30,019 nt of DNA, from positions 1 through 30,019 of IMG/VR virus record IMGVR_UViG_3300028392_000223; one strand, written 5' to 3'. How positions within the stretch are numbered: position 1 is the stretch's first letter; each line of letters starts with the position of its first letter. The notes below the pieces were generated by a model. It was not told where the DNA came from. It saw only the letters and a program-made list of their open reading frames with translations, and searched no databases. A program made the translations under genes and the position numbers. Source of the stretch: a virus. Shown here piece after piece: positions 3,847 to 28,106 of this stretch.

Positions 3847-4131
3847 TCAAATAAAATGCCGGGTATCCTGTTCGTTATATAGATCTTCAAATGGCGCGGG
3901 CTCGTAAACTTCATTATAAGGAATTAAAATTACAGCCTTTTCTTTTTCTGTTACAGATTTAACCTTGTCAAGCAGCTCTTCGAATATAAATTCTTTGTTG
4001 CAATGCGAGCAACGCCTAATATGATCTATTGCTATTCTTTGGTCTCTTTCTATTTCTAATTCTCTACCGCAACAAGGGAATTGTGATTCTAAGCTTGAAA
4101 CTTGATTTAAAGAAAACATATTACTTGACAT
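3847..4131 (-). CDS. Small zinc-ribbon-like protein, 94 aa
   Basis: Distal gene of the leftward early block. It has two cysteine pairs, CC at 20-21 and CxxC at 41-44, spaced like a small zinc ribbon, then an acidic, hydrophobic C-terminal part. Its start directly abuts the stop of the upstream gene, so the two are probably translated together. No function can be assigned; DNA-binding or adaptor roles are common for such phage proteins but are not shown here. Confidence 0.6.
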   Translation of the reverse strand: MSSNMFSLNQVSSLESQFPCCGRELEIERDQRIAIDHIRRCSHCNKEFIFEELLDKVKSVTEKEKAVILIPYNEVYEPAPFEDLYNEQDTRHFI

Positions 4132-4563
4132 TTAATCAACCCAATTTAGTTTTATGCCGCAATCAGGGCAGAACTTTGTTCCAAATCCGTCATATTCGCT
4201 ATGTGGTTTTTTAAGCTCGTCGCATTCACAATTCGGGCATTCGTAGCTGTCATATCCGCATTCTAAATTACGACCAACTAAATAGTCTTTCTCTGTTACG
4301 TAAACAATAGAAGGCTTAATATCCCCCCTCGACCTCAGCGAATTGCGCCAGTCTCCGGAGTAGTCTAATAAAAATTCGGGGATCTGAAAGTATTTTGTAC
4401 CCCTCTCATAGATCCAATCCTCTTTATTTTCATCTAAAATCGGCTTATTTAAAGGAAAACAAAGCTCTACCGTTTTAAAGGGAATGAAGTAATCGGGATT
4501 GGTAATGCAAACAAAATTATAGCCTTTTAACTCTTCTAAAATCTGCTCAAGCGTTAGTTTCAT
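4132..4563 (-). CDS. Hypothetical protein with C-terminal zinc ribbon, 143 aa
   Basis: The start is set by a good ribosome site, AGGAGG followed by ATATGAAAA before the ATG, lying inside the upstream gene (17-base overlap). The C-terminal 35 residues contain CPNC (109-112) and CPDC (132-135), a clear four-cysteine zinc ribbon. The N-terminal 100 residues have aromatic and acidic patches and no motif I know. Part of a leftward cluster of short phage genes; function unknown. Confidence 0.7.
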   Translation of the reverse strand: MKLTLEQILEELKGYNFVCITNPDYFIPFKTVELCFPLNKPILDENKEDWIYERGTKYFQIPEFLLDYSGDWRNSLRSRGDIKPSIVYVTEKDYLVGRNLECGYDSYECPNCECDELKKPHSEYDGFGTKFCPDCGIKLNWVD

Positions 4564-4732
4564 TTTTCATATCCTCCTGTGTTCTTTGTAAAAATTTTTG
4601 GAATTCTATATGGCAATCAATTATATTGCAATTTGGATCGCCTATTTCTATAAGCCGGTCAAGCTCCAACAATCTGTCCTTGTATTTTTCTTTAAGTTTT
4701 AAAAGGTCTTTGTAAATTCTATTGCTCAACAA
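4547..4732 (-). CDS. Small helical hypothetical protein, 61 aa
   Basis: 61 residues, rich in Lys, Glu and Leu in the first 30 (KDLLKLKEKYKDRLLELDRL), predicted helical and possibly coiled-coil. It overlaps both neighbours (17 bases downstream, 14 upstream), the packing expected in a phage early operon. No recognised family. Confidence 0.55.
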   Translation of the reverse strand: MLSNRIYKDLLKLKEKYKDRLLELDRLIEIGDPNCNIIDCHIEFQKFLQRTQEDMKNETNA

Positions 4733-4964
4733 ACACCTTTTTAAGTTCGTTAACGGCTTCTTTGTTTAGATCTTGTATATCCACGCCAAGCTGCTTATAA
4801 AAAGCAGGGTTTTTATTTGCTGAATTTGCTTTTTCTGCAAATTTTAGTTTTTTAGTAAAAATTTTAAATTGTGATGCGTAGCTTAGGGCGAGATCAAAAT
4901 CACCCGCAGAGATAATTGATTTTAGCTTAGTTACTCTATAATCTTCTTTTTCTTTATTTTCCAT
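4719..4964 (-). CDS. Hypothetical protein, 81 aa
   Basis: 81 residues, mostly helical and charged, with no cysteine. The ATG has a clear AAGGAG site six bases upstream. It overlaps the downstream 61-aa gene and the end of the broken gene upstream. No known motif. Confidence 0.6.
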   Translation of the reverse strand: MENKEKEDYRVTKLKSIISAGDFDLALSYASQFKIFTKKLKFAEKANSANKNPAFYKQLGVDIQDLNKEAVNELKKVFVEQ

Positions 4965-5124
4965 AATCTACTCCTTGTTTTTTTAATTTCCAACCAAAAA
5001 ACTCTTCATTTATTTTATTTAAAAAGTTTTCTATTTCTGTTTACTCTAAATCTTTAAATACAGATATTGAATTAACTAGGATATTTACTTGCTCAGTGAA
5101 ACTGATATTTGAACGTATTTCCAT
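4954..5124 (-). pseudogene. Small gene interrupted by an in-frame TAA
   Basis: An ATG at 5124-5122 with GGAGG upstream opens a frame of 27 codons (MEIRSNISFT...), then TAA at 5043-5041. The same frame stays open for 28 more codons and ends in a TAA that overlaps the start of the next gene, as its neighbours do. The downstream half has normal coding character (NEEFFGWKLKKQG). The simplest reading is a 56-aa gene broken by one substitution, for example CAA to TAA. Alternatives are a real 27-aa peptide or a sequencing error. Function unknown. Confidence 0.5.
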
Positions 5125-5157
5125 AACTGTTAAACCTCCATTTATAATTAAAAAAAT

Positions 5158-5186
5158 ATTATAAAGTACAAATAACACAAAGTAAA
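5158..5186 (-). promoter_or_regulatory. Leftward promoter with operator-like repeats
   Basis: On the reverse strand: -35 TTTACT (5186-5181), 17-base spacer, perfect -10 TATAAT (5163-5158). The -35 box lies in AGTAAAGTACTTTAT, which contains a small dyad and matches the repeat found at the other leftward promoters. It would drive the genes from 5124 down to 3847. Confidence 0.6.
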
Positions 5187-5207
5187 GTACTTTATCGTAT
5201 TATATTG

Positions 5208-5495
5208 TTATATTTTTGTGTCTAGTAATTCCATAATGAAAAGGTTAGCTCCTTTGTCGTATCCTTTATTTTTAGCAACCATTCTTAAATCAGATTTAAA
5301 TCTAAGAAATTGCTTTTTATGTTCATTAATAATATTTGCTGCTTGCATTATCTTTTCTATAGATTTTTTAGTTGGTTTAAGTTTATTTGCTTCATATAAT
5401 GTTATTGTCGTTACTGTTTTTCCAATATAATAAGCAAATTGTGCTTGTGTTACGTCTAAAGATTCCCTTATTTTTTTTATGTCTAGCCCGTTCAT
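5208..5495 (-). CDS. XRE-family helix-turn-helix regulator, 95 aa
   Basis: Residues 5-50 form a Cro/C1-type helix-turn-helix: IKKIRESLDVTQAQFAYYIG, then TVTTITLYEANKLKP, with the usual Q and E positions. The C-terminal 40 residues are basic and may dimerise. The start has AGGAGTACTAAA before the ATG. Likely a DNA-binding repressor or activator of the early block. The repeated AGTAAAGTAA-type sites at 5158-5186, 7222-7299 and 28802-28877 are candidate operators, but nothing in the sequence proves that this protein binds them. Orientation and size also fit a Cro-like role. Confidence 0.8.
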   Translation of the reverse strand: MNGLDIKKIRESLDVTQAQFAYYIGKTVTTITLYEANKLKPTKKSIEKIMQAANIINEHKKQFLRFKSDLRMVAKNKGYDKGANLFIMELLDTKI

Positions 5496-5553
5496 TTTAG
5501 TACTCCTAGTTGATATGACTTATGTTTTTATTTTATAACTTATTTATAAATTA

Positions 5554-5820
5554 CTATATTAAAACAGGTATTATTTTTCTTTTTACAGATTTTATTTTAC
5601 AATTTTTTTCAATCCATATTTTTAATTCTTTTAAAGATAAAGTCGTTCCAGAAACCCCTTTTGCAGGCTGTCCAAATCCGTCGGATAATCTAATTTCATA
5701 TGAATTTATTGTTTTTAATTCTATACAGATCCAACTTTCACCCCCTTGTTTTATATCTGCTACTATTGTTAATTTTTTATTATAAGTCCTAAATTTAAAA
5801 TTTAAATTTTCTATTTTCAT
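5554..5820 (-). CDS. Hypothetical protein, 88 aa
   Basis: The frame could start further upstream (5898), but the ATG at 5820 has a strong AAGGAGG with seven-base spacing and is preferred. Strand-rich composition (KFRTYNKKLTIVADIKQGG, ICIELKTINSYEIRLSDG) suggests a small beta domain. It lies 10 bases downstream of a 34-aa micro-gene. No family recognised. Confidence 0.65.
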   Translation of the reverse strand: MKIENLNFKFRTYNKKLTIVADIKQGGESWICIELKTINSYEIRLSDGFGQPAKGVSGTTLSLKELKIWIEKNCKIKSVKRKIIPVLI

Positions 5821-5830
5821 TTTATCCTCC

Positions 5831-5935
5831 TTATTTTTTATAAAAGCTAAGTCCAAAAATTCTAAATTCTGGATAAATAGCTTCGATTTTATGACCACGT
5901 TTTTTATATTGAACTTTACTTAGTTTAATACTCAT
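5831..5935 (-). CDS. Micro-protein, 34 aa
   Basis: ATG at 5935 with a near-perfect AAGGAGGT site, then MSIKLSKVQYKKRGHKIEAI and a hydrophobic, aromatic C-terminus (FRIFGLSFYKK). Very basic. The strong ribosome site and tight spacing to the next gene are the evidence; function unknown. Confidence 0.6.
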   Translation of the reverse strand: MSIKLSKVQYKKRGHKIEAIYPEFRIFGLSFYKK

Positions 5936-5989
5936 TTTGTAACCTCCTTGTTAATTTTTAAGTTTCATATTCAGTTGTAAAATTTTAAT

Positions 5990-6256
5990 CTAGTCTTCAT
6001 GTTTAGCTATAATTTTTTGTAATTCCCCTAAATATTCTTTCATTAAAAGTGCGGTTAATTTCCCTTCATATTCTGATTCACTTTTTAACCAATTATCACC
6101 AACAAATGTGTTAAAGTCGTTGGGATTCAGCTCAACAATTGATAATCCAAAAGCCCCCAGATTGTATTTATTAAAATATATTTTTGCTTCTTGTTCAGCC
6201 TCAAAAAAAACAAGATTGTATTTTGTGCAAATATTACTTATTTTAAATCTTTTCAT
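5990..6256 (-). CDS. Hypothetical protein, 88 aa
   Basis: ATG with GGAGAGATAAA upstream. Mixed alpha/beta composition, containing NPNDFNTFVGDNWLKSE and an acidic, helical C-terminus. Separate short gaps on both sides place it in the leftward early operon. No motif recognised. Confidence 0.6.
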   Translation of the reverse strand: MKRFKISNICTKYNLVFFEAEQEAKIYFNKYNLGAFGLSIVELNPNDFNTFVGDNWLKSESEYEGKLTALLMKEYLGELQKIIAKHED

Positions 6257-6316
6257 TTTATCTCTCCGTTTTAATTAGTCTAGCCAGTTTGTATTTATCT
6301 GCTATTTATTTTATAT

Positions 6317-6628
6317 TTAAACAATACAGCAAATGCTTTTTTCTTTTTCATAATATTTAAAATCAAATTCGTTTAATTTTGGGCTTGAAATAAATTCTTC
6401 GGTAAGGCAATAAAACTTGGCTAAATATTTTTCATTTTTAAAGCCAAAATTTGAGTACATTTTAAAAAGGCCACCTTTAAAATTTTTAACGTAAAATTGC
6501 TTGATTATTTGCTTCATTATTTCTTTATCAAAATTATTTGATTTTGCTATTAAAATTGGTGTATGACCAAATTCAATTAAAAATAATGATACAGCTATTT
6601 CGTTATTTTTTTGTAGTTCAATTTTCAT
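6317..6628 (-). CDS. Hypothetical protein, 103 aa
   Basis: ATG preceded by CGGAGAATATAAA, a leader almost identical to that of the gene at 28761, so the two blocks share initiation style. The protein is Phe/Lys-rich with a CC pair near the C-terminus (residues 100-101). No recognisable domain. Confidence 0.6.
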   Translation of the reverse strand: MKIELQKNNEIAVSLFLIEFGHTPILIAKSNNFDKEIMKQIIKQFYVKNFKGGLFKMYSNFGFKNEKYLAKFYCLTEEFISSPKLNEFDFKYYEKEKSICCIV

Positions 6629-6658
6629 TTTATATTCTCCGTTGAAGTAAATTCAAAT

Positions 6659-6898
6659 TTAAGCGCTATCACGTTTAGTTAATCCAGCACAACAATCTAA
6701 AATACTTTTTACTACACTTTGATCAAGACTACGCAAAGAAGTATGATTTAATTGCATAAATATTTTAGTTCTCTGGTCTTGTATTAATAATCCACTATCC
6801 CACCCATCGCGCGTAATTAATCCTAATAATTCAAACCCATCTGGTATTTTTTGAGCAAAAAGCCACGTAGGTTTAAACTTTTTATTAATCTTATACAT
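6659..6898 (-). CDS. Hypothetical protein, 79 aa
   Basis: The start is supported by GGGGAGG inside the end of the upstream gene (8-base overlap). Contains FELLGLITRDGWDSGLLIQD and a CC pair near residue 69. Looks like a small alpha/beta protein; family unknown. Confidence 0.6.
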   Translation of the reverse strand: MYKINKKFKPTWLFAQKIPDGFELLGLITRDGWDSGLLIQDQRTKIFMQLNHTSLRSLDQSVVKSILDCCAGLTKRDSA

Positions 6899-7184
6899 AA
6901 TTTATAACCTCCCCAGTTTCACTAGCACCCCAGATTGAAAAAGGGCCTTTTGAAGGCGGAGTTGCTATAAAGTCGTCAAATTTTGATAAGTTTGTAACGA
7001 TATAATCACCATTAGATTGTTTTTCTAATTCTAATTCTTCAGCTTGATTAAAACGTAAACCGTTTGCGTTTTTACCAATTGCTGCAAACTGATATTCGTT
7101 GTAGCAAATTTCTGGTCTAACATCTATACCGTTAATTAATAATCTATATCCTATTTCGCCTTTTAGTTTTTCTAGTTTTATCAT
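6891..7184 (-). CDS. Hypothetical protein, 97 aa, first gene of leftward block
   Basis: First gene after the divergent promoter region. Its ATG has a GAGAATATAGA leader. Strand-rich sequence with GEIGYRLLINGIDVRPEICY and a central acidic stretch (QAEELELEKQ). No motif recognised. Probably among the earliest transcribed leftward genes because the promoter in the 7224-7299 element lies about 40 bases upstream. Confidence 0.6.
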   Translation of the reverse strand: MIKLEKLKGEIGYRLLINGIDVRPEICYNEYQFAAIGKNANGLRFNQAEELELEKQSNGDYIVTNLSKFDDFIATPPSKGPFSIWGASETGEVINYV

Positions 7185-8255: not shown

Positions 8256-11045
8256 ATGCGTAATTTATTAAAATATTTAACAGTTTCTATATTTTTAATT
8301 CCTTCAGTTTTATTTTCTATTCCTGTTTCAGAATTAATCGCTCCACTTACTGCTTTAAAAGTTTATCCTCCTAATGGAGGCGGTGGTGGATCAACAATTG
8401 TAACTGCTTCAACACCTATTGTTTCAACAGAAGTTACTGGAGGTTATAATATTTCATGCCCAACTTGTACAACAGGATCTTTACTTGCTTATCAGCAAGC
8501 TTTTGGTGTTCCGCCAGCAGGAAGTATTAGTGGTGGACCTTATGTATCGATTGGACCAACAAGCGATATGCATTTTACATATGGAACTGGATTAACTTTT
8601 ACTTCAGCTAATTTAATTGGAAAAATATATCAGTATTTAGATAATAATTATATCTGGCATTTTTCGCCTTATTTGAATTCGCCAATGAACGGTGTACAAG
8701 TTGATACAGGATCATCAGTAATATTGTCTGATAGTACAGATACTAGTAAAGTTAAATTAAAAAATAATCAAGGAAATTTAGAAGTAACAGGCGAAAACGG
8801 AAGCATTGGAACAATTACTACAGCGGGTGCAATTGTTGCAGAAAAAGGGGCTGTATTTAGTGATGACGTAACAATGTTAGCTGGCAAAAAAACAAGATAT
8901 TTTAATCCAAACAATACAAAATTAGCAACAACAAATTTAGATGCTTCAGGAAATTTAAATAATTTAGGGGCTAATAATTATAAGTATGATGCCCCAATTT
9001 TATTAACAGATCCTACAAATACATATTTTGGGTCTATTTCAAAAAAATTACTTGGAGGCCTTGTTCCTGCAATGTCAATATCATCAAATAATACAATTAT
9101 AACTGGCGATGACGGAGCGTCTCCCGGAAGTTTTTTATTAGGTTATGGTTCTAATATTAATTTTCAAAATTCAACAAATAGTAGTAGTACTCGTGTTTCT
9201 TTAGATGACCTAGGCAATTTAAATTTTACGGGGCCAACAAATTATACGTTTGATTCAAATTTATTAATTAAAAACGGAACAAGTTTAAAATTACAAAGCG
9301 CCGATCAAACTGCACAATCAACTTTGAGCACTGATGACAATCATGATCTTATTGCAACTTCACAAAATGAAATAAAATTAATCGCAAATGAAAATGTTGA
9401 AATTAATGCTAGTTTAATTTTGAAAAATAAAGACACGGATATTACATTGGGAGTCTGGAATAAAGATAATGGGTCTTTAGGAATAATAGATTCTGAAACC
9501 GGATTATTTTCTGAATATTTGTCGATAAAAACTGTTGATGGGCAAAGCTGGCTACAAATTGGTGATGGAAATACTACACAGCCAATGGCTTTTAATCACA
9601 ACACAAATAAAAACGGAGTTGTTTATCTTGATAATGATTATCGCATGATAACGCCGGTTTTGTTATCCGGCCAAGCTTTAGTGGGTAATACTTCAGATGC
9701 CCCAACGCCTCAAAATATTTTACTTTCCACAACCCCTTTAAATTCTATTGCGGCACCTACAAATGATGTATCTTTAAATTCAAAAAAAATAACAAATCTA
9801 GCTAAAGGGATAAGTACTGGGGACGCAGCTACAGTAGGTCAATTGCAGGGATACCTGCCGGCCGAAACTCCTTTAAATAATATTGCGGCACCAATTGCAA
9901 ACGTATCGTTGAATAATTATCAAATTAATAATTTAAAACCAGGCATTTTACTTTCAGATTCAGCTACAGTAGGGCAAGCAACTAAGCAACTAGAAAAAGT
10001 ATATTACGTTTCGACGACGGGTAATGATGCAACTGCGACCGGTTCTCAATCTTCTCCTTATTCAACTGTGAATAAAGTAATTTCCTTGATTCCTGTCAAC
10101 AATGCAACAAATGTAACAATTTATGTTGCGCCCGGAACCTATACTGAAAATATCGTTATAAATAAACAAAGGGTTGATATTATCGGCATGGAAGCTCCCT
10201 CATCACAACCAAAAGCAGTTAAATTCCCAAGCATCTCAATAACAACAACTGGAAGTAATGCGGGGGATTATGTCGATAATGGCGTCTCAATTTCAAACAT
10301 TACTTTAACCGCTAGGACTGGGTTGGAAACTTACGCAATATCTTATACCGCTTCTAATCTTTTTTTAAGCTTAAATGATGTATTGATCAGCAACAACATA
10401 AATATCGATGGTATCGTTATGAATGTTGCGGATAGCAGTCGACTTTATATAAATAACTCGTCAATCAATGTGCTTGGTACAGGGGTCGCTATGCGATTTA
10501 ATCGTGGAGAATTATGGGATTTTAGAAACAGCCAAGCAACCAGCACAAACGGAGCTGCTTTAATCGCAAACAGCAATAATGTTGCTATTTATTCTGCTAT
10601 TAATAGTACTTTTTCGTCAACAGGAATAGTTTTAAATTTTACAGGGTCAAATAATAAATCCATTATTGCTGTATTTAGCCAAAGCTTAATCCAAGGGGCT
10701 CCGATTGGAGGCGGTGGAACAAACGCCATGATTCAACTTGGTGCAAGTTTTAATTTAAGTTTAAATAATTGCAGTGTAACCAGCTTAGGTGGTGTCGCTC
10801 AAATCGCCAATCCTATGATTTACTTAGGCTCTAGCTCTGTATTGCTTGCAACCTACAATTCAATTAGTGCAAACGCCACTGGTTCAGCTGCTTTTGTGCC
10901 AATCCAAAGCGTTGCGGGTAATAATAGTATCTTTAGCTACTATGGAAATGTATTTTTAACATCGGGAGGTACTAACGTTTATTCGAAACCTGTGTCAGGA
11001 GTGGGCGGGTTTTTAATAGTATCTAAAATGCAAACAGATAGTTAA
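8256..11045 (+). CDS. Beta-helix tail-spike/adhesin-like protein with signal peptide
   Basis: 929 residues. N-terminus MRNLLKYLTVSIFLIPSVLFS is a Sec-type signal peptide, unusual for a virion tail protein, which normally assembles in the cytoplasm. A GGGGG linker follows at about 41-45. Residues 50-480 are Gly/Asn/Thr-rich, strand-forming fibre sequence. Two repeats at about 494-530 and 537-575 (LNSIAAPTNDVSLN and LNNIAAPIANVSLN, each ending in an ATVGQ box) resemble the neck repeats of trimeric fibres and autotransporters. From about 583 (VYYVSTTGNDATATGS) to about 900 the pattern is that of a right-handed parallel beta-helix, as in spikes and pectate-lyase-like proteins. Likely a trimeric host-binding or glycan-processing fibre. 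Confidence 0.7.
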   Translation: MRNLLKYLTVSIFLIPSVLFSIPVSELIAPLTALKVYPPNGGGGGSTIVTASTPIVSTEVTGGYNISCPTCTTGSLLAYQQAFGVPPAGSISGGPYVSIGPTSDMHFTYGTGLTFTSANLIGKIYQYLDNNYIWHFSPYLNSPMNGVQVDTGSSVILSDSTDTSKVKLKNNQGNLEVTGENGSIGTITTAGAIVAEKGAVFSDDVTMLAGKKTRYFNPNNTKLATTNLDASGNLNNLGANNYKYDAPILLTDPTNTYFGSISKKLLGGLVPAMSISSNNTIITGDDGASPGSFLLGYGSNINFQNSTNSSSTRVSLDDLGNLNFTGPTNYTFDSNLLIKNGTSLKLQSADQTAQSTLSTDDNHDLIATSQNEIKLIANENVEINASLILKNKDTDITLGVWNKDNGSLGIIDSETGLFSEYLSIKTVDGQSWLQIGDGNTTQPMAFNHNTNKNGVVYLDNDYRMITPVLLSGQALVGNTSDAPTPQNILLSTTPLNSIAAPTNDVSLNSKKITNLAKGISTGDAATVGQLQGYLPAETPLNNIAAPIANVSLNNYQINNLKPGILLSDSATVGQATKQLEKVYYVSTTGNDATATGSQSSPYSTVNKVISLIPVNNATNVTIYVAPGTYTENIVINKQRVDIIGMEAPSSQPKAVKFPSISITTTGSNAGDYVDNGVSISNITLTARTGLETYAISYTASNLFLSLNDVLISNNINIDGIVMNVADSSRLYINNSSINVLGTGVAMRFNRGELWDFRNSQATSTNGAALIANSNNVAIYSAINSTFSSTGIVLNFTGSNNKSIIAVFSQSLIQGAPIGGGGTNAMIQLGASFNLSLNNCSVTSLGGVAQIANPMIYLGSSSVLLATYNSISANATGSAAFVPIQSVAGNNSIFSYYGNVFLTSGGTNVYSKPVSGVGGFLIVSKMQTDS

Positions 11046-14882: not shown

Positions 14883-16718
14883 ATGAAGAGAAAAGAAATT
14901 TCTATTTCTAAAAAAAAAAGAGATCGGTTAAGTAGTAGAAAAAATACTATACTTAAAGGTTCTCCTTTAAATTATAACGCCGGCTTTAAAACTTATTATA
15001 TTAAAAAGGTTCAAAGCATTATAGATCCATTAATGGAATATGTTGAAAAATCAGTGATCAAGTTTTTTAATTCTGACGTTTCAGAAGATTTTTTTGAAAG
15101 CCAATCAATTGCAATGGATGAAGCGATATCCAGCCAATCAAGAATATTTATGAATAAATTAATGAATAGAGTTATGCCGTGGCTTGATAAAAAAAGTATT
15201 CTTTTTTCAACAAGGATGGTAAAAGAAGCAGAAAAACTTAGTAAAGCATCTTTACATAGTAGCCTAAAAAAATTAACGGGTGCTGTAACAATAAAAACTT
15301 CAAATATTAGCCAAAATTTAAAACAAATAATGAAAGCTAATATTGAAGAAAATGTAGCTTTAATAAAAACAATAGGAGAAAATTATTTAACTAATGTTGA
15401 AAAAGCTGTTTATAGATCTATAACAACCGGTAAAGGCTTAAAAGATTTGGTACCCGAAATTCAAGGTTTCTTAAAAAAACAATATAAAACGCATCATAAT
15501 AAAGCTAAAAATGTAGCTTTAGATCAAACAAGAAAAGTTTTTACAAGTATTAATATTCAAAGAATGAAAGAAATAGGGCAAAAAAAGTTTGAGTGGGTTC
15601 ATAGCGGCGGAGGACAACATCCAAGGGAAGATCATATTGCGATGAATGGTAAAATATATAATATAGATAACCCACCTATAATTGATAAAAAAACAGGCGT
15701 ACGTGGTTTCCCTTCACAGGCTATTAATTGCTTTGTTGGATCAACAGAAATATCTCTTGCTAATGGTTGTGTTGATTTGTGGAGGCACTTTTATAGTGGA
15801 GATATTATTAATATAATCTTGAGCGGAGGGCATGTCTTCCAGTGTACACCGAATCACCCAATACTGACCCTTAGGGGGTGGTTGCCTGCTAACGAAATCA
15901 AGGAGAGCGATTATTTGATCGGGGATAATTTCAACAACGATTTTGCTGTTAGTAATAAAGTAACACGGGATAAGGTCACTTTTAAAGATACTTTTAATTC
16001 TCTCCATATTACTTTCAACGCTAAGAGACTTCTTAGTTCTGATTTTAACTTCCACGGCTACATTCCTGAAACGGATGTCGACGCTATAAGCCCCGATAAT
16101 ATTTTGCCGAATTGGATTGAATCCATGAGTGAGAAGCAGATTGAAAAGTTCGTTCTCGCACTCTCCGATATCATAACTAATGATTTTATCCCTAGCTTTA
16201 ATTCCAAGGTTTTTAAGCCTAGCTTTCCTAGCCATTTCGGAAAGTTTTTTTCTTTCGTCGGTGGTAAGTTTAGACATTCTGATTTTAGTAGCCTTGCTGC
16301 TATCCCTGATCAGGATTCCGAACTCTTTAATGATATTCAGTATGGAACTTCTACTAATATTGTACCTCTTAGAAATACTAAGAATGCTTTCACCTTTTTC
16401 ATAACTTGTGACGATGTTAGTTTTATTCGAGTTTATATAGTCGACTTTCCTAGTGATAGGAATTTTGTACCCGATGAATTTATAAAGAGCCTGAGAGAGC
16501 CTTCCAGGGCTGCACCCATGTTTAGCTGCAAATTTCCTAATAGATTCTCCAGCTTCAAGAATCTCTTTAGAGTAAGTCAAAAAATCAAGAGTGTATTTAG
16601 CGGTCATGTTTATACAATGCAAAGTTATAATGGCTGGTATAGTGTATCATCTGCAAACATAATAAGCAAGAATTGCAAGTGTATTATGTTGCCAGTTATT
16701 GAGTATAATAATGATTAA
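14883..16718 (+). CDS. MuF-type head morphogenesis protein interrupted by an intein
   Basis: The 611-codon frame encodes a minor head protein of the SPP1 gp7/Mu F family. The N-part (1-282) is helical and carries the conserved block FEWVHSGGGQHPREDHIAMN, then GKIYNIDNPP and GFPSQAIN. The last 14 residues (CKCIMLPV...) complete the usual NCxC-x-LPV ending. Between N282 and C598 lies a 315-residue intein, so splicing would give a 296-residue protein. MuF proteins bind the portal and enter the procapsid. No Shine-Dalgarno site, just an A-rich leader after the portal stop. Confidence 0.88.
   Translation: MKRKEISISKKKRDRLSSRKNTILKGSPLNYNAGFKTYYIKKVQSIIDPLMEYVEKSVIKFFNSDVSEDFFESQSIAMDEAISSQSRIFMNKLMNRVMPWLDKKSILFSTRMVKEAEKLSKASLHSSLKKLTGAVTIKTSNISQNLKQIMKANIEENVALIKTIGENYLTNVEKAVYRSITTGKGLKDLVPEIQGFLKKQYKTHHNKAKNVALDQTRKVFTSINIQRMKEIGQKKFEWVHSGGGQHPREDHIAMNGKIYNIDNPPIIDKKTGVRGFPSQAINCFVGSTEISLANGCVDLWRHFYSGDIINIILSGGHVFQCTPNHPILTLRGWLPANEIKESDYLIGDNFNNDFAVSNKVTRDKVTFKDTFNSLHITFNAKRLLSSDFNFHGYIPETDVDAISPDNILPNWIESMSEKQIEKFVLALSDIITNDFIPSFNSKVFKPSFPSHFGKFFSFVGGKFRHSDFSSLAAIPDQDSELFNDIQYGTSTNIVPLRNTKNAFTFFITCDDVSFIRVYIVDFPSDRNFVPDEFIKSLREPSRAAPMFSCKFPNRFSSFKNLFRVSQKIKSVFSGHVYTMQSYNGWYSVSSANIISKNCKCIMLPVIEYNND
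15729..16673 (+). other. Intein in the MuF gene (Hint splicing domain)
   Basis: 315 residues, C283 to N597 of the MuF frame. N-terminal splicing block: CFVGSTEISLANG (Cys1 nucleophile), then HVFQCTPNHPILTLRGWLPA with the TxNH block B. C-terminal blocks: GHVYTMQSYNGWYSVSSANI followed by ISKN|C, with terminal Asn and +1 Cys. The residue before the Asn is Lys rather than the usual His, which can slow cleavage but occurs in active inteins. The middle (about residues 335-570 of the frame) shows no LAGLIDADG or HNH motif in the sense reading. The insertion point is the most conserved motif of MuF, typical of inteins. Confidence 0.88.
15741..16607 (-). CDS. Putative homing endonuclease on the antisense strand of the intein
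   Basis: 288 codons from ATG 16607 (a TTG at 16622 is also possible), lying wholly inside the intein. Residues 18-45 and 66-98 read as two helix-turn-helix segments (ESIRKFAAKHGCSPGRLSQA; ESILSISKRYNISRSSILNI). A basic linker follows at 103-135. Residues 148-190 look like a PD-(D/E)XK/Vsr-like core: E151/E153, VDIRF (D177) and VAVEVK (E186, K188). This is the order found in HTH-nuclease homing enzymes. The last 45 residues lie opposite the Hint N-terminal block and may not be part of the nuclease fold. The frame is codon-aligned with the sense frame. No clear ribosome site. Confidence 0.7.
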   Translation of the reverse strand: MTAKYTLDFLTYSKEILEAGESIRKFAAKHGCSPGRLSQALYKFIGYKIPITRKVDYINSNKTNIVTSYEKGESILSISKRYNISRSSILNIIKEFGILIRDSSKATKIRMSKLTTDERKKLSEMARKARLKNLGIKARDKIISYDIGECENELFNLLLTHGFNPIRQNIIGAYSVDIRFRNVAVEVKIRTKKSLSVESNMERIKSIFKSDLIPCYFITNSKIVVEIIPDQIIALLDFVSRQPPPKGQYWVIRCTLEDMPSAQDYINNISTIKVPPQINTTISKRYFC

Positions 16719-26386: not shown

Positions 26387-27337
26387 TCATGCTATACATT
26401 CTTTGTACATTAATCTCTTTCCTTGTGAAGAGTGTATAGCCTGAATGGTGCGTTCTCCGTCTTCCATTTCCCTAAAATTGTATCTAAATTCATATTCAGC
26501 CATATAGCGATGTAGATGCTCTTTGCTAACAGCATGATAGATGCCATTTAAACCCCTTTTAACAATAGCAAAGAAGCTTTCAATAGTATTTGAGTGGATA
26601 TCCCCACGCACATACTCTTTTGCACTATGACATACTGATTCGTGACCTCCTTCGTAATGTTGACCTATCCCATTATAAGAAGGGTTTTCATCTGTAATGA
26701 TACGTGAAGTCTTGCAAACATTATCCAGTATTAGAGTCTTCAAAGTTTTACCTGTTACGTTAGCCACTGGCTTGGTTTTAACCCGTCCCTGACGCTCTAC
26801 TAGAGCAACCACGGGTTGTTTGTTAGTTCCACGTCCACGCTTGCTTTGCCCCTTATAACGAGGTTTTCCACCAACGTATGTTTCATCTACTTCAACATCA
26901 CCTTTAAGTGGATCTTGCACGCTATCAGCCATCGCAAAACGAATACGATTTAACATGAATAAAGAGGATTTATAAGATAAACCTGTTTGACGATGAACTT
27001 CTAAAGCACTTACGCCTTTCTTAGAAGTAGAGGCACGCCAAAAGCCAAAACACCAATGACGTAATTCTATTTTGCTATCTTCAAATACAGTGCCTGTACG
27101 CACAGTATATTGCTTCCTGCAATCACGACAACGCCAACGAAAGTTTTCTTGACGCACACCATCTAAACTTCGCATTTGATAAACATCAAGGCTTGCACAG
27201 CATGGGCAAAAAGGATGATCGCCCCATCTTTTAGCTTCCATAAATTCAACAGCTAGTTTTTCATTAGAACAAGCCATTGGAATTTCTTTTGTGATAATAT
27301 CGTCTTTAGTAGAGCGATTTTGTATTTTAGTTTTCAT
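26387..27337 (-). CDS. IS1595-family transposase (ISXO2-like)
   Basis: 316 residues. An N-terminal zinc ribbon (CPCC 44-47 and CRDC 70-73) is followed by a helix-turn-helix around 105-130 and the ISXO2-like DDE domain: VEVDETYVGG (D151), RIITDENPSY (D216) and HSNTIESFFAIVKRG (E253). Length and motif order are complete, so the enzyme is probably active. It cuts and rejoins the element ends, giving the 8-bp duplication seen here. Starts 121 bases inside the right end. Confidence 0.93.
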   Translation of the reverse strand: MKTKIQNRSTKDDIITKEIPMACSNEKLAVEFMEAKRWGDHPFCPCCASLDVYQMRSLDGVRQENFRWRCRDCRKQYTVRTGTVFEDSKIELRHWCFGFWRASTSKKGVSALEVHRQTGLSYKSSLFMLNRIRFAMADSVQDPLKGDVEVDETYVGGKPRYKGQSKRGRGTNKQPVVALVERQGRVKTKPVANVTGKTLKTLILDNVCKTSRIITDENPSYNGIGQHYEGGHESVCHSAKEYVRGDIHSNTIESFFAIVKRGLNGIYHAVSKEHLHRYMAEYEFRYNFREMEDGERTIQAIHSSQGKRLMYKECIA

Positions 27338-27458
27338 GATTACACCCTGAGTTTATGAGTATAATTTTATACTTAAATAAAGTTTTAGTCAAGTAAAATA
27401 TTAAATAAATCTTATTTTGATTATATTTTATGCTAGTTTAGTTAAATACATACTTCCG

Positions 27459-27466
27459 AAATATTT
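27459..27466. repeat. Target site duplication, right copy
   Basis: AAATATTT, identical to 25001-25008. One copy belongs to the original helicase codons (part of lysine, Asn and Ile codons in KNI). Confidence 0.85.
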
Positions 27467-28022
27467 TTATCAAAACTTTGATCTAAAGATTTTGATGTTA
27501 TAATTTCAATAGTTAAATCTTGATTTATCAGCCATTTCTTAATCTCTCTATACCAATTAACTTTTAATGAAGCAGGACAAATTATAATTGCTGTTTTAAA
27601 ATCAGAAATGTTATTCATTACGCCAATTGCCTGTATTGTTTTACCAAGCCCCATCTCATCTCCGATCAAACATGACTTTTTTTGAAGAGCATAAGTGATC
27701 CCTACTTTTTGATAACCTAAATAATTTAAATTGTCAGGTTTTAATAGTACATCTTCTGTTGTTAATTCTTCCTGTTTTGAAAGCCGATTAAATTCTTTAT
27801 CTAATTTTTTAACGTGATCGGGTACGTCTTCCCAGCGATTTACAAACCATGCAGAATCATACCCGTCACCTTTTTTGCTTACACTAAATCCTTTATTTTT
27901 TACCGATCCTTTATCGCTTCGCCAAGCTTCCCAAAATTCTTCTGTTGGGGTTGCGTTAAAGACATATTTCTGGCCTTTTCTAGTTAAAACTTTTTTCCCT
28001 GAATCAAAAATTAATCCGTACA

Positions 28023-28106
28023 TTATTTAACCCGCTTTTTAAACAGCTTGATTGCTGCGATAAAGTAATTATAATTGATTCCCGTTTTTAAAACGTAAAA
28101 TCTCAA
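28023..28106 (-). CDS. Micro-protein coupled to the helicase gene, 27 aa
   Basis: TTG start, then RFYVLKTGINYNYFIAAIKL and a basic end. Its TAA overlaps the helicase ATG (TAATG), a classic coupling arrangement. The sequence also contains TATAATTACTTTATC, the same 15 bases as the -10 region of the element at 28802-28877, so part of this stretch may be regulatory rather than coding. No ribosome site. Confidence 0.35.
   Translation of the reverse strand: MRFYVLKTGINYNYFIAAIKLFKKRVK

Follow-up and report, generated by a model that had tools for sequence, protein, structure and literature searches.

Canonical homing inteins are in-frame insertions at conserved sites that combine the Hint splicing blocks with an endonuclease of the LAGLIDADG or HNH type, read in the same frame as the spliced protein. 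Among group I introns, some carry the endonuclease gene on the complementary strand, as described for introns of ribosomal DNA. Another solution is the ShiLan-type insert of phage methylase genes, in which an HNH endonuclease is hidden in the third frame of the same transcript and which is described as having no detectable self-splicing domain (PMC11855218, Genes 2025). Here we analyse a locus that differs from all three. It lies in the 30,019-base virus record IMGVR_UViG_3300028392_000223, which as a whole we call the window and whose positions are used throughout, and it consists of an intein within a MuF-like minor head protein gene. The sequence evidence makes it very probable that this is a mobile intein whose splicing domain is encoded on the sense strand and whose homing endonuclease is encoded on the antisense strand of the same DNA.

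The element and its two frames

The MuF open reading frame (ORF; 14883-16718, plus strand, 611 amino acids, aa) belongs to a run of genes on the plus strand (portal, MuF, DUF2213, cement-like, major capsid), with the portal gene upstream and the DUF2213 and major capsid genes downstream. It matches Phage_Mu_F at E 2.2e-9, above the Pfam cut-off, and NCBIfam phageSPP1_gp7 at 7.1e-11. An intein of 315 codons (15729-16673) interrupts it at codon 283, running from Cys1 (codon 15729-15731) to the terminal Asn (16671-16673) and followed by Cys+1 (16674-16676). The Intein_splicing profile matches the ORF below its cut-off (E 4.5e-7, 30.2 bits against 35.8). The residues expected of splicing are present, namely Cys1, T40 and H43 in the block B motif TPNH, His293 in the block F motif GHVY, Asn315 and Cys+1, so that the full Hint frame proposed in the initial annotation holds in both coordinates and motifs. 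In an alignment of 31 inteins, C1, T40 and H43 are found in every row, H293 in 28 and N315 in 30 (the remaining row has a gap); the residue preceding the terminal Asn is K in the window intein, S in 20/31 and the usual His in 6/31.

On the minus strand, a frame of 288 aa extends from an ATG at 16607 to a stop at 15741-15743. The two frames are codon-aligned: positions 1, 2 and 3 of a sense codon are positions 3, 2 and 1 of the antisense codon. An in-frame TTG further upstream would give 293 aa; the ATG is the start common to relatives. As first noticed from the sequence, the codons TTA, CTA and TCA are missing from the sense frame here: they make up 387 of the 4915 codons of 15 neighbouring ORFs and none of the 288 opposite the antisense frame, where Leu is written CTT, TTG, CTC or CTG while TTA dominates in neighbouring genes. 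The naive chance of such a frame being open is 5e-11, in a window of about 0.31 G+C.

AlphaFold2 models of the sense intein (31 sequences) have a predicted local distance difference test score (pLDDT) mostly above 70 for aa 1-124, except 69-79, and of about 86-96 for aa 277-315, whereas the middle, aa 125-276, stays below 50, i.e. is predicted to be disordered. According to the models, the roughly 150 sense codons opposite the helix-turn-helix (HTH) units and the start of the nuclease core would act as a spacer in the sense frame. The middle is also where classical inteins carry their endonuclease, which is the argument for a divergent in-frame enzyme that would make the antisense frame irrelevant. 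Profile searches of this middle returned no endonuclease domain or family match, in agreement with the original remark that it holds no such motif. Given the absent matches and the predicted disorder we rejected the idea, and the faster change of the sense frame described below leaves it with practically no chance of being correct. The features of the locus are as follows.

14883..15728, plus strand: N-extein, first 282 codons of the MuF-like minor head protein (Phage_Mu_F, phageSPP1_gp7, neighbouring genes)
15729..16673, plus strand: intein of 315 codons with Cys1, TPNH, His293 and Asn315 (motifs, alignment)
15729..16100, plus strand: N-terminal part of the sense Hint domain, aa 1-124, predicted folded except 69-79 (AlphaFold2 pLDDT)
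16101..16556, plus strand: putative sense spacer, aa 125-276, predicted disordered (pLDDT below 50)
16557..16673, plus strand: C-terminal part of the sense Hint domain, aa 277-315, blocks F and G (pLDDT about 86-96)
16674..16715, plus strand: C-extein (CKCIMLPVIEYNND), 14 codons (translation)
15741..16607, minus strand: predicted antisense nuclease gene, 288 aa plus stop (ORF, homologues, fold)
16605..16607, minus strand: nuclease ATG, opposite the block-F His293 codon (start in representatives)
16473..16589, minus strand: first HTH unit, aa 7-45 (predicted helices; match of aa 1-46 to the KorB DNA-binding domain)
16317..16448, minus strand: second HTH unit, aa 54-97 (HTH_28, 7.7e-7; gamma-delta resolvase HTH, Z 7.1)
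15873..16169, minus strand: predicted Vsr-like PD-(D/E)XK core, aa 147-245, with E151, D177 and E186 (profile, model, alignment)
16050..16061, both strands: motif under constraint on both strands, FHGY in the sense frame (most relatives have FHGD) against antisense V183-A184-V185-E186 (codon choice)

Relatives in other phages

When the antisense protein was compared with phages by tblastn, 53 records matched, 23 of them at 80% cover or more and all below 60% identity (best 1e-21). In 10 of 11 phage records fetched (Edwardsiella MSW-3, Klebsiella KpTDp1, Aaphi23, Gordonia Vivi2, Fosterous and Malisha, Vibrio PvVp04 and H2, Pantoea AH01 and Pseudomonas BR313c) the frame lies antisense to MuF, or to a gene in the MuF position, that contains an intein, and the antisense gene is unannotated. 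In Acinetobacter IME285 the nuclease is an annotated freestanding gene, tail to tail with an intein-less MuF, and the opposite frame has 11 stops across the matched stretch; P1068 has the same layout.

The full set comprised 128 loci (114 on viral contigs, 3 on genome contigs and those of the 11 phage records; from one scan of viral and genome contigs that fed it, the best 80 of 110 were taken). Their nuclease genes represent 102 different DNA sequences, which fall into 93 clusters at 85% identity. Both frames are open in 127 of the loci, the exception being IME285. Each of these 127 contains one or more Hint motifs; block B was recognised in 124 and an FHGD-like motif in 123. A search with three sense inteins, which avoids the bias of an antisense query, found a codon-aligned antisense nuclease in all of the best 80 of at least 557 relatives; such a ranking favours full-length inteins, and shorter, nuclease-free ones could escape this count. 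Host genes of 91 representatives matched Phage_Mu_F (67), Phage_portal (13) and VG15 (1), families which may overlap in members. The arrangement is not peculiar to the window phage; only two near-identical relatives were found.

Two further observations concern related loci. Salmonella Jerseyvirus L143 and L144, two examined of the 64 Salmonella records matched by the sense search, have MuF inteins with an intact antisense nuclease. Klebsiella phage FZ14 carries an annotated 'homing endonuclease' (L137:1954-2517, minus strand) between portal and an intein-less MuF, on the opposite strand.

Predicted fold and active site of the antisense protein

The AlphaFold2 model of the antisense protein (88 sequences; pLDDT 84.8, predicted template modelling score 0.65) contains two HTH units followed by a long helix and a PD-(D/E)XK core; the HTH units and the core had been proposed in the initial annotation and are borne out by profile and fold. 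The top Foldseek match is I-Bth0305I (3r3p; E 2.4e-3, probability 1.00), followed by 3hrl, while VIA-align gave Vsr at Z 10.3 (111 residues, root-mean-square deviation 2.8) and 9.4, 3r3p at Z 9.2 and 3hrl at Z 8.5. A family sequence profile compared with PDB matched the I-Bth0305I nuclease 3r3p at 9.4e-6 and 3hrl at 1.9e-5, and among 13 family members compared with Pfam (E up to 1) REase_MTES_1575 was found in 7 and DUF559 in 3. By these models, the nearest solved folds are Vsr and the homing endonuclease I-Bth0305I. The window protein on its own found no nuclease with phmmer against PDB (best E 0.049, unrelated) and did not reveal one in Pfam (UPF0102, E 0.06, below cut-off); it is the family profile and the fold, not the window sequence alone, that reveal its identity.

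The acidic active-site residues are almost invariant among 88 aligned relatives: E151 is kept in 87, D177 and E186 in all. These three residues of the originally proposed active site stood, whereas E153 is kept in 30/88 only and K188 lacks conservation (45 rows have F). A His within eight residues after E186 occurs in 68/88 members and is absent from the window protein. I-Bth0305I is the type of the EDxHD family, whose motif includes a His after the second acidic pair.

Patterns of change in the two frames

For 2068 pairs, aligned on the antisense protein and not independent of one another, antisense position 3 has more changes than position 1 in 2030, and the antisense proteins are more alike than the sense ones in 2066. 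Restricting the comparison to 28 disjoint pairs leaves the same pattern in 27 (p 2e-7), with 2350, 1422 and 3149 changes at antisense positions 1, 2 and 3 (a1, a2, a3) over 7047 codons. As a control, the MuF N-exteins follow the sense frame in 15/15 pairs, 13 control pairs having been dropped for an N-extein that was unusable or below 30% identity. Closer to the window, its 97% relative L004 differs in the N-extein by 8, 6 and 36 changes at sense positions 1, 2 and 3 and in the nuclease span by 13, 1 and 8, which corresponds to 13 sense and 7 antisense aa changes (small numbers); in the Jerseyvirus pair there are 24 sense and 11 antisense aa changes. Judged by codon positions, the antisense frame is under purifying selection, in support of the two-strand proposal.

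These data also bear on whether the antisense frame is a mere shadow of a conserved, codon-aligned sense protein. A high G+C content often leaves such frames open, and some relatives reach 0.6-0.7 G+C; conservation of a sense protein also mirrors onto the other strand. Against this, the window is A+T-rich and its frame is open despite the very small chance calculated above, the antisense protein is the better conserved one in nearly all (non-independent) pairs and by codon position in all but one disjoint pair, it is predicted to fold confidently where the sense middle is not, and there is a freestanding relative whose opposite frame is not open. The codon-position tests and the freestanding relative rule out an open frame due to chance or G+C, and we assign the shadow explanation as a whole a negligible probability.

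Overlap of functional parts

A block-F pattern was found in 53 of 92 representatives (none in 39). In these 53 the nuclease start opposite the block-F His is ATG in 50 and GTG in 3, and GGAG, GAGG or AGGA stands upstream of it in 31, compared with 88/1204 control windows. The Leu codon opposite that site is CTC in 35/49 cases, where 9.2 are expected from the same genes. Within the core, the predicted catalytic motif VAVE of the nuclease (aa 183-186) and FHGD of the sense frame (FHGY in the window) face each other exactly; 71/88 rows have FHGD without deviation. VAVE is encoded by GTC at Val183 in 63/67, GCC at Ala184 in 84/87, GTG at Val185 in 72/73 and GAA at Glu186 in 81/88, while elsewhere in those frames the same codons make up 43%, 41%, 22% and 49%; the freestanding row has GTG GCG CTG GAA, opposite FQRH. 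Because this nuclease-silent codon choice is skewed to keep FHGD, both strands are constrained at VAVE/FHGD. The sequences suggest an interlocked arrangement, with the nuclease start opposite the block-F His, the putative ribosome-binding site of many members opposite the Asn-Leu codons of block F, and VAVE as the reverse of FHGD.

Empty sites and alternative inserts

Comparison of Gordonia phages Vivi2 and Bibwit reveals an insert of exactly 316 codons (948 nt) at VI|NC, with 2209/2304 flank bases equal; 110 Gordonia records match the Vivi2 region, 7 of which cover at least 80% (duplicates included). Klebsiella RCIP0113 differs from FZ14 by a 325-codon insert at the same place, and for the KpTDp1, MEW1 and KLPPOU148 pairs a simple breakpoint scan gave no single place. 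The MuF gene of Pantoea AH01 with the N-terminal part of its intein matches 788 records, 109 over at least 80%; M01, PA_LZ02, BP15 and Shemara, considered as further intein types, were rejected since these four partial AH01 matches are intein-less MuF genes. Among the window's own close relatives no empty allele was found. Elsewhere, related nucleases occur in divergent MuF genes: L061 and L072 are 79% identical in the nuclease and 30% in MuF, and L069 and L085 are 61% identical in the nuclease with no MuF match. Precise empty sites together with near-identical inteins in divergent MuF genes indicate, at the level of sequence comparison, that the element is mobile.

In Gordonia Vividuovirus phages (L134, L141, L142, L008, L133), one MuF site is occupied by inserts of three different kinds (the Vivi2, the Sedona and the Lennon type) or is empty (Bibwit). 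The insert of Sedona and Kewpiedoll is of PD-(D/E)XK type (1e-46). Lennon has a different intein there, 275 codons long, and opposite it a frame of 196 aa (L134:2029-2616), which was rejected as a member of the same nuclease family for want of a match to the family profile and has no Pfam match at E up to 1. It contains a AAYVAAFIDGEG stretch, a presumed LAGLIDADG motif, matches I-MsoI (whole-sequence E 0.0013, single-stretch E 5.5) and by tblastn finds phage genes annotated as 'DNA endonuclease' or as 'HNH homing endonuclease' (2e-6 and 8e-6). The weak I-MsoI match, the tblastn matches and the presumed motif suggest a LAGLIDADG-like frame. Between Lennon and Barsten, changes at a1, a2 and a3 number 16, 6 and 51; of 196 aa, 15 differ in the antisense protein and 55 in the sense protein.

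A real antisense protein need not be a homing endonuclease: it could be a regulator, a Vsr-like repair nuclease or a nuclease directed at competitors, travelling as a passenger of the intein. HTH units dominate its Pfam matches, Vsr is its top structural match, and homing cleavage is a prediction only. On the other hand, it is located in a mobile insert at one conserved site for which precise empty alleles exist, its E/D/E residues are kept in 87-88 of 88 relatives, its profile matches I-Bth0305I, and in the Lennon-type intein, which occupies the same MuF site, the antisense frame is of another kind, LAGLIDADG-like. We therefore regard a role other than homing as improbable.

Other genes of the window

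Outside the head gene block, an IS1595-type transposase (26387-27337, minus strand; DDE_Tnp_IS1595, 7.5e-41) lies inside the phage record and is adjoined by a fragment-length ORF of 193 aa of SNF2 helicase type (27442-28023). An ORF of 929 aa (8256-11045, plus strand), upstream of a terminase-like ORF, has weak Pectinesterase and YadA-stalk matches and a match to a phage tail family at 9.3e-12.

Discussion

Homologues, codon-position tests, folds and empty sites all support the initial proposal that splicing and mobility are separated onto opposite strands, and none of the three findings that it named as refuting came about: the antisense frame is intact in the inteins examined, its model has a nuclease fold with Vsr and I-Bth0305I as neighbours, and the sense middle contains no endonuclease domain. 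We envisage that the sense Hint domain would splice itself out of MuF, its middle being a loose spacer, and that the antisense frame would encode a homing endonuclease as a protein of its own, site-specific and composed of two HTH units and a Vsr-like PD-(D/E)XK domain. This enzyme would cut intein-less MuF genes, presumably near the N|C-x-C codons, after which double-strand-break repair would copy the intein into the cut gene. Its expression is most likely independent of MuF, with antisense transcription and its timing as presumed parts of the model. The MuF gene of Klebsiella RCIP0113 is flanked by minus-strand ORFs, six of which end just at its 3' side while two are located at its 5' side; this would place the nuclease within an opposite-strand gene run, and MSW-3 is similar. 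In the window, the plus-strand late genes continue past the intein region.

Several points weigh against this two-strand interpretation. Splicing, cutting and antisense expression are inferred from sequence comparison. The 2068 pair counts are mostly non-independent, the disjoint pair L035/L036 goes in the opposite direction, and across the final fifth of the nuclease frame, which faces Hint blocks A and B, a1 changes equal or exceed a3 changes, so there the sense frame dominates. Foldseek gave no match to the antisense model at E 0.001 (best 2.4e-3), structural Z scores of 9-10 are modest, and the catalytic-lysine position varies among the 88 rows. Finally, the window nuclease start has no Shine-Dalgarno motif upstream, and no convincing antisense promoter was found in the window (5 promoter-like sites, 8.0 in shuffles).

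The last two points, together with the finding of two near-identical relatives only and with a Shine-Dalgarno motif in 7 of the 13 minus-strand ORFs examined, would also fit an element that was once mobile and in which, in the window phage, the antisense gene is now silent or inactive and the intein persists by splicing alone. The open frame and intact active-site residues speak for a working gene instead, as do the changes between the close pair, which are mostly antisense-silent (small numbers). Loss of nuclease function in this particular phage is thus unlikely, albeit the most serious of the alternatives considered here. As a separate observation on start signals, a Shine-Dalgarno-like motif precedes 2 of the 14 plus-strand ATG ORFs examined, compared with the 7/13 on the minus strand (4131-7184, 23319 and 28761 among the ORFs of that comparison), as if early and late genes differed in their start signals.

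Beyond the window, we lean, with distinctly less assurance, towards a general picture in which MuF inteins form a widespread opposite-strand class. Its members would have recruited, at one host site, endonucleases of no fewer than two unrelated folds, the Vsr-like and the LAGLIDADG-like one, their active parts would be interlocked, the nuclease would be made early and apart from the late head gene, and loss of one function alone would be hindered. If our interpretation is true, nature provides here a double-coded mobile element, in which one stretch of DNA specifies two proteins, each with recognisable catalytic parts. Phages from several bacterial phyla or classes carry it, mostly annotated as a head gene only. 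Opposite-strand, early transcription would let the homing nuclease precede the late host head gene and stay apart from it. The retention of endonucleases by inteins becomes testable, given that with opposite-strand overlap a mutation in one protein often hits the other, and interlocking would hinder losing one function while keeping the other. Overlapping-gene theory, in turn, gains more than 100 natural examples and a freestanding control.

As for precedent, titles and abstracts of the open-licence literature searched, a coverage outside which preprints fall, contained no antisense intein endonuclease. Strand terms were absent from PMC9957025 and PMC5050341 and concerned recognition sites in PMC8966425. 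Priority is nevertheless uncertain: a 2025 preprint on actinobacteriophage inteins of 'non-canonical architecture' (reference 7 of PMC11855218) may overlap with our results, possibly including the Gordonia MuF inteins.

Comparison with the known systems places the element between several of them. With canonical homing inteins it shares the in-frame insertion at a conserved site, the Hint blocks, the precise empty alleles and the linked endonuclease, but theirs is an in-frame LAGLIDADG or HNH domain, whereas here the predicted endonuclease occupies its own frame on the opposite strand and the sense strand retains a spacer predicted to be disordered. I-Bth0305I is the best homing-endonuclease match in PDB by profile (9.4e-6) and fold; unlike 3r3p, which is labelled 'mobile intron protein', the protein described here is antisense to an intein and has two N-terminal HTH units. 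Group I introns with an antisense gene likewise unite a self-splicing element with a homing gene on the other strand, yet they splice as RNA and need no double open frame, whereas here the same DNA is coding on both strands. The ShiLan-type insert is alike in that the host gene reads through it while a homing endonuclease is concealed in a different frame (PMC11855218); it differs in that its HNH enzyme lies on the same strand, while in the MuF intein the predicted nuclease is antisense and of PD-(D/E)XK type, and Hint motifs are present.

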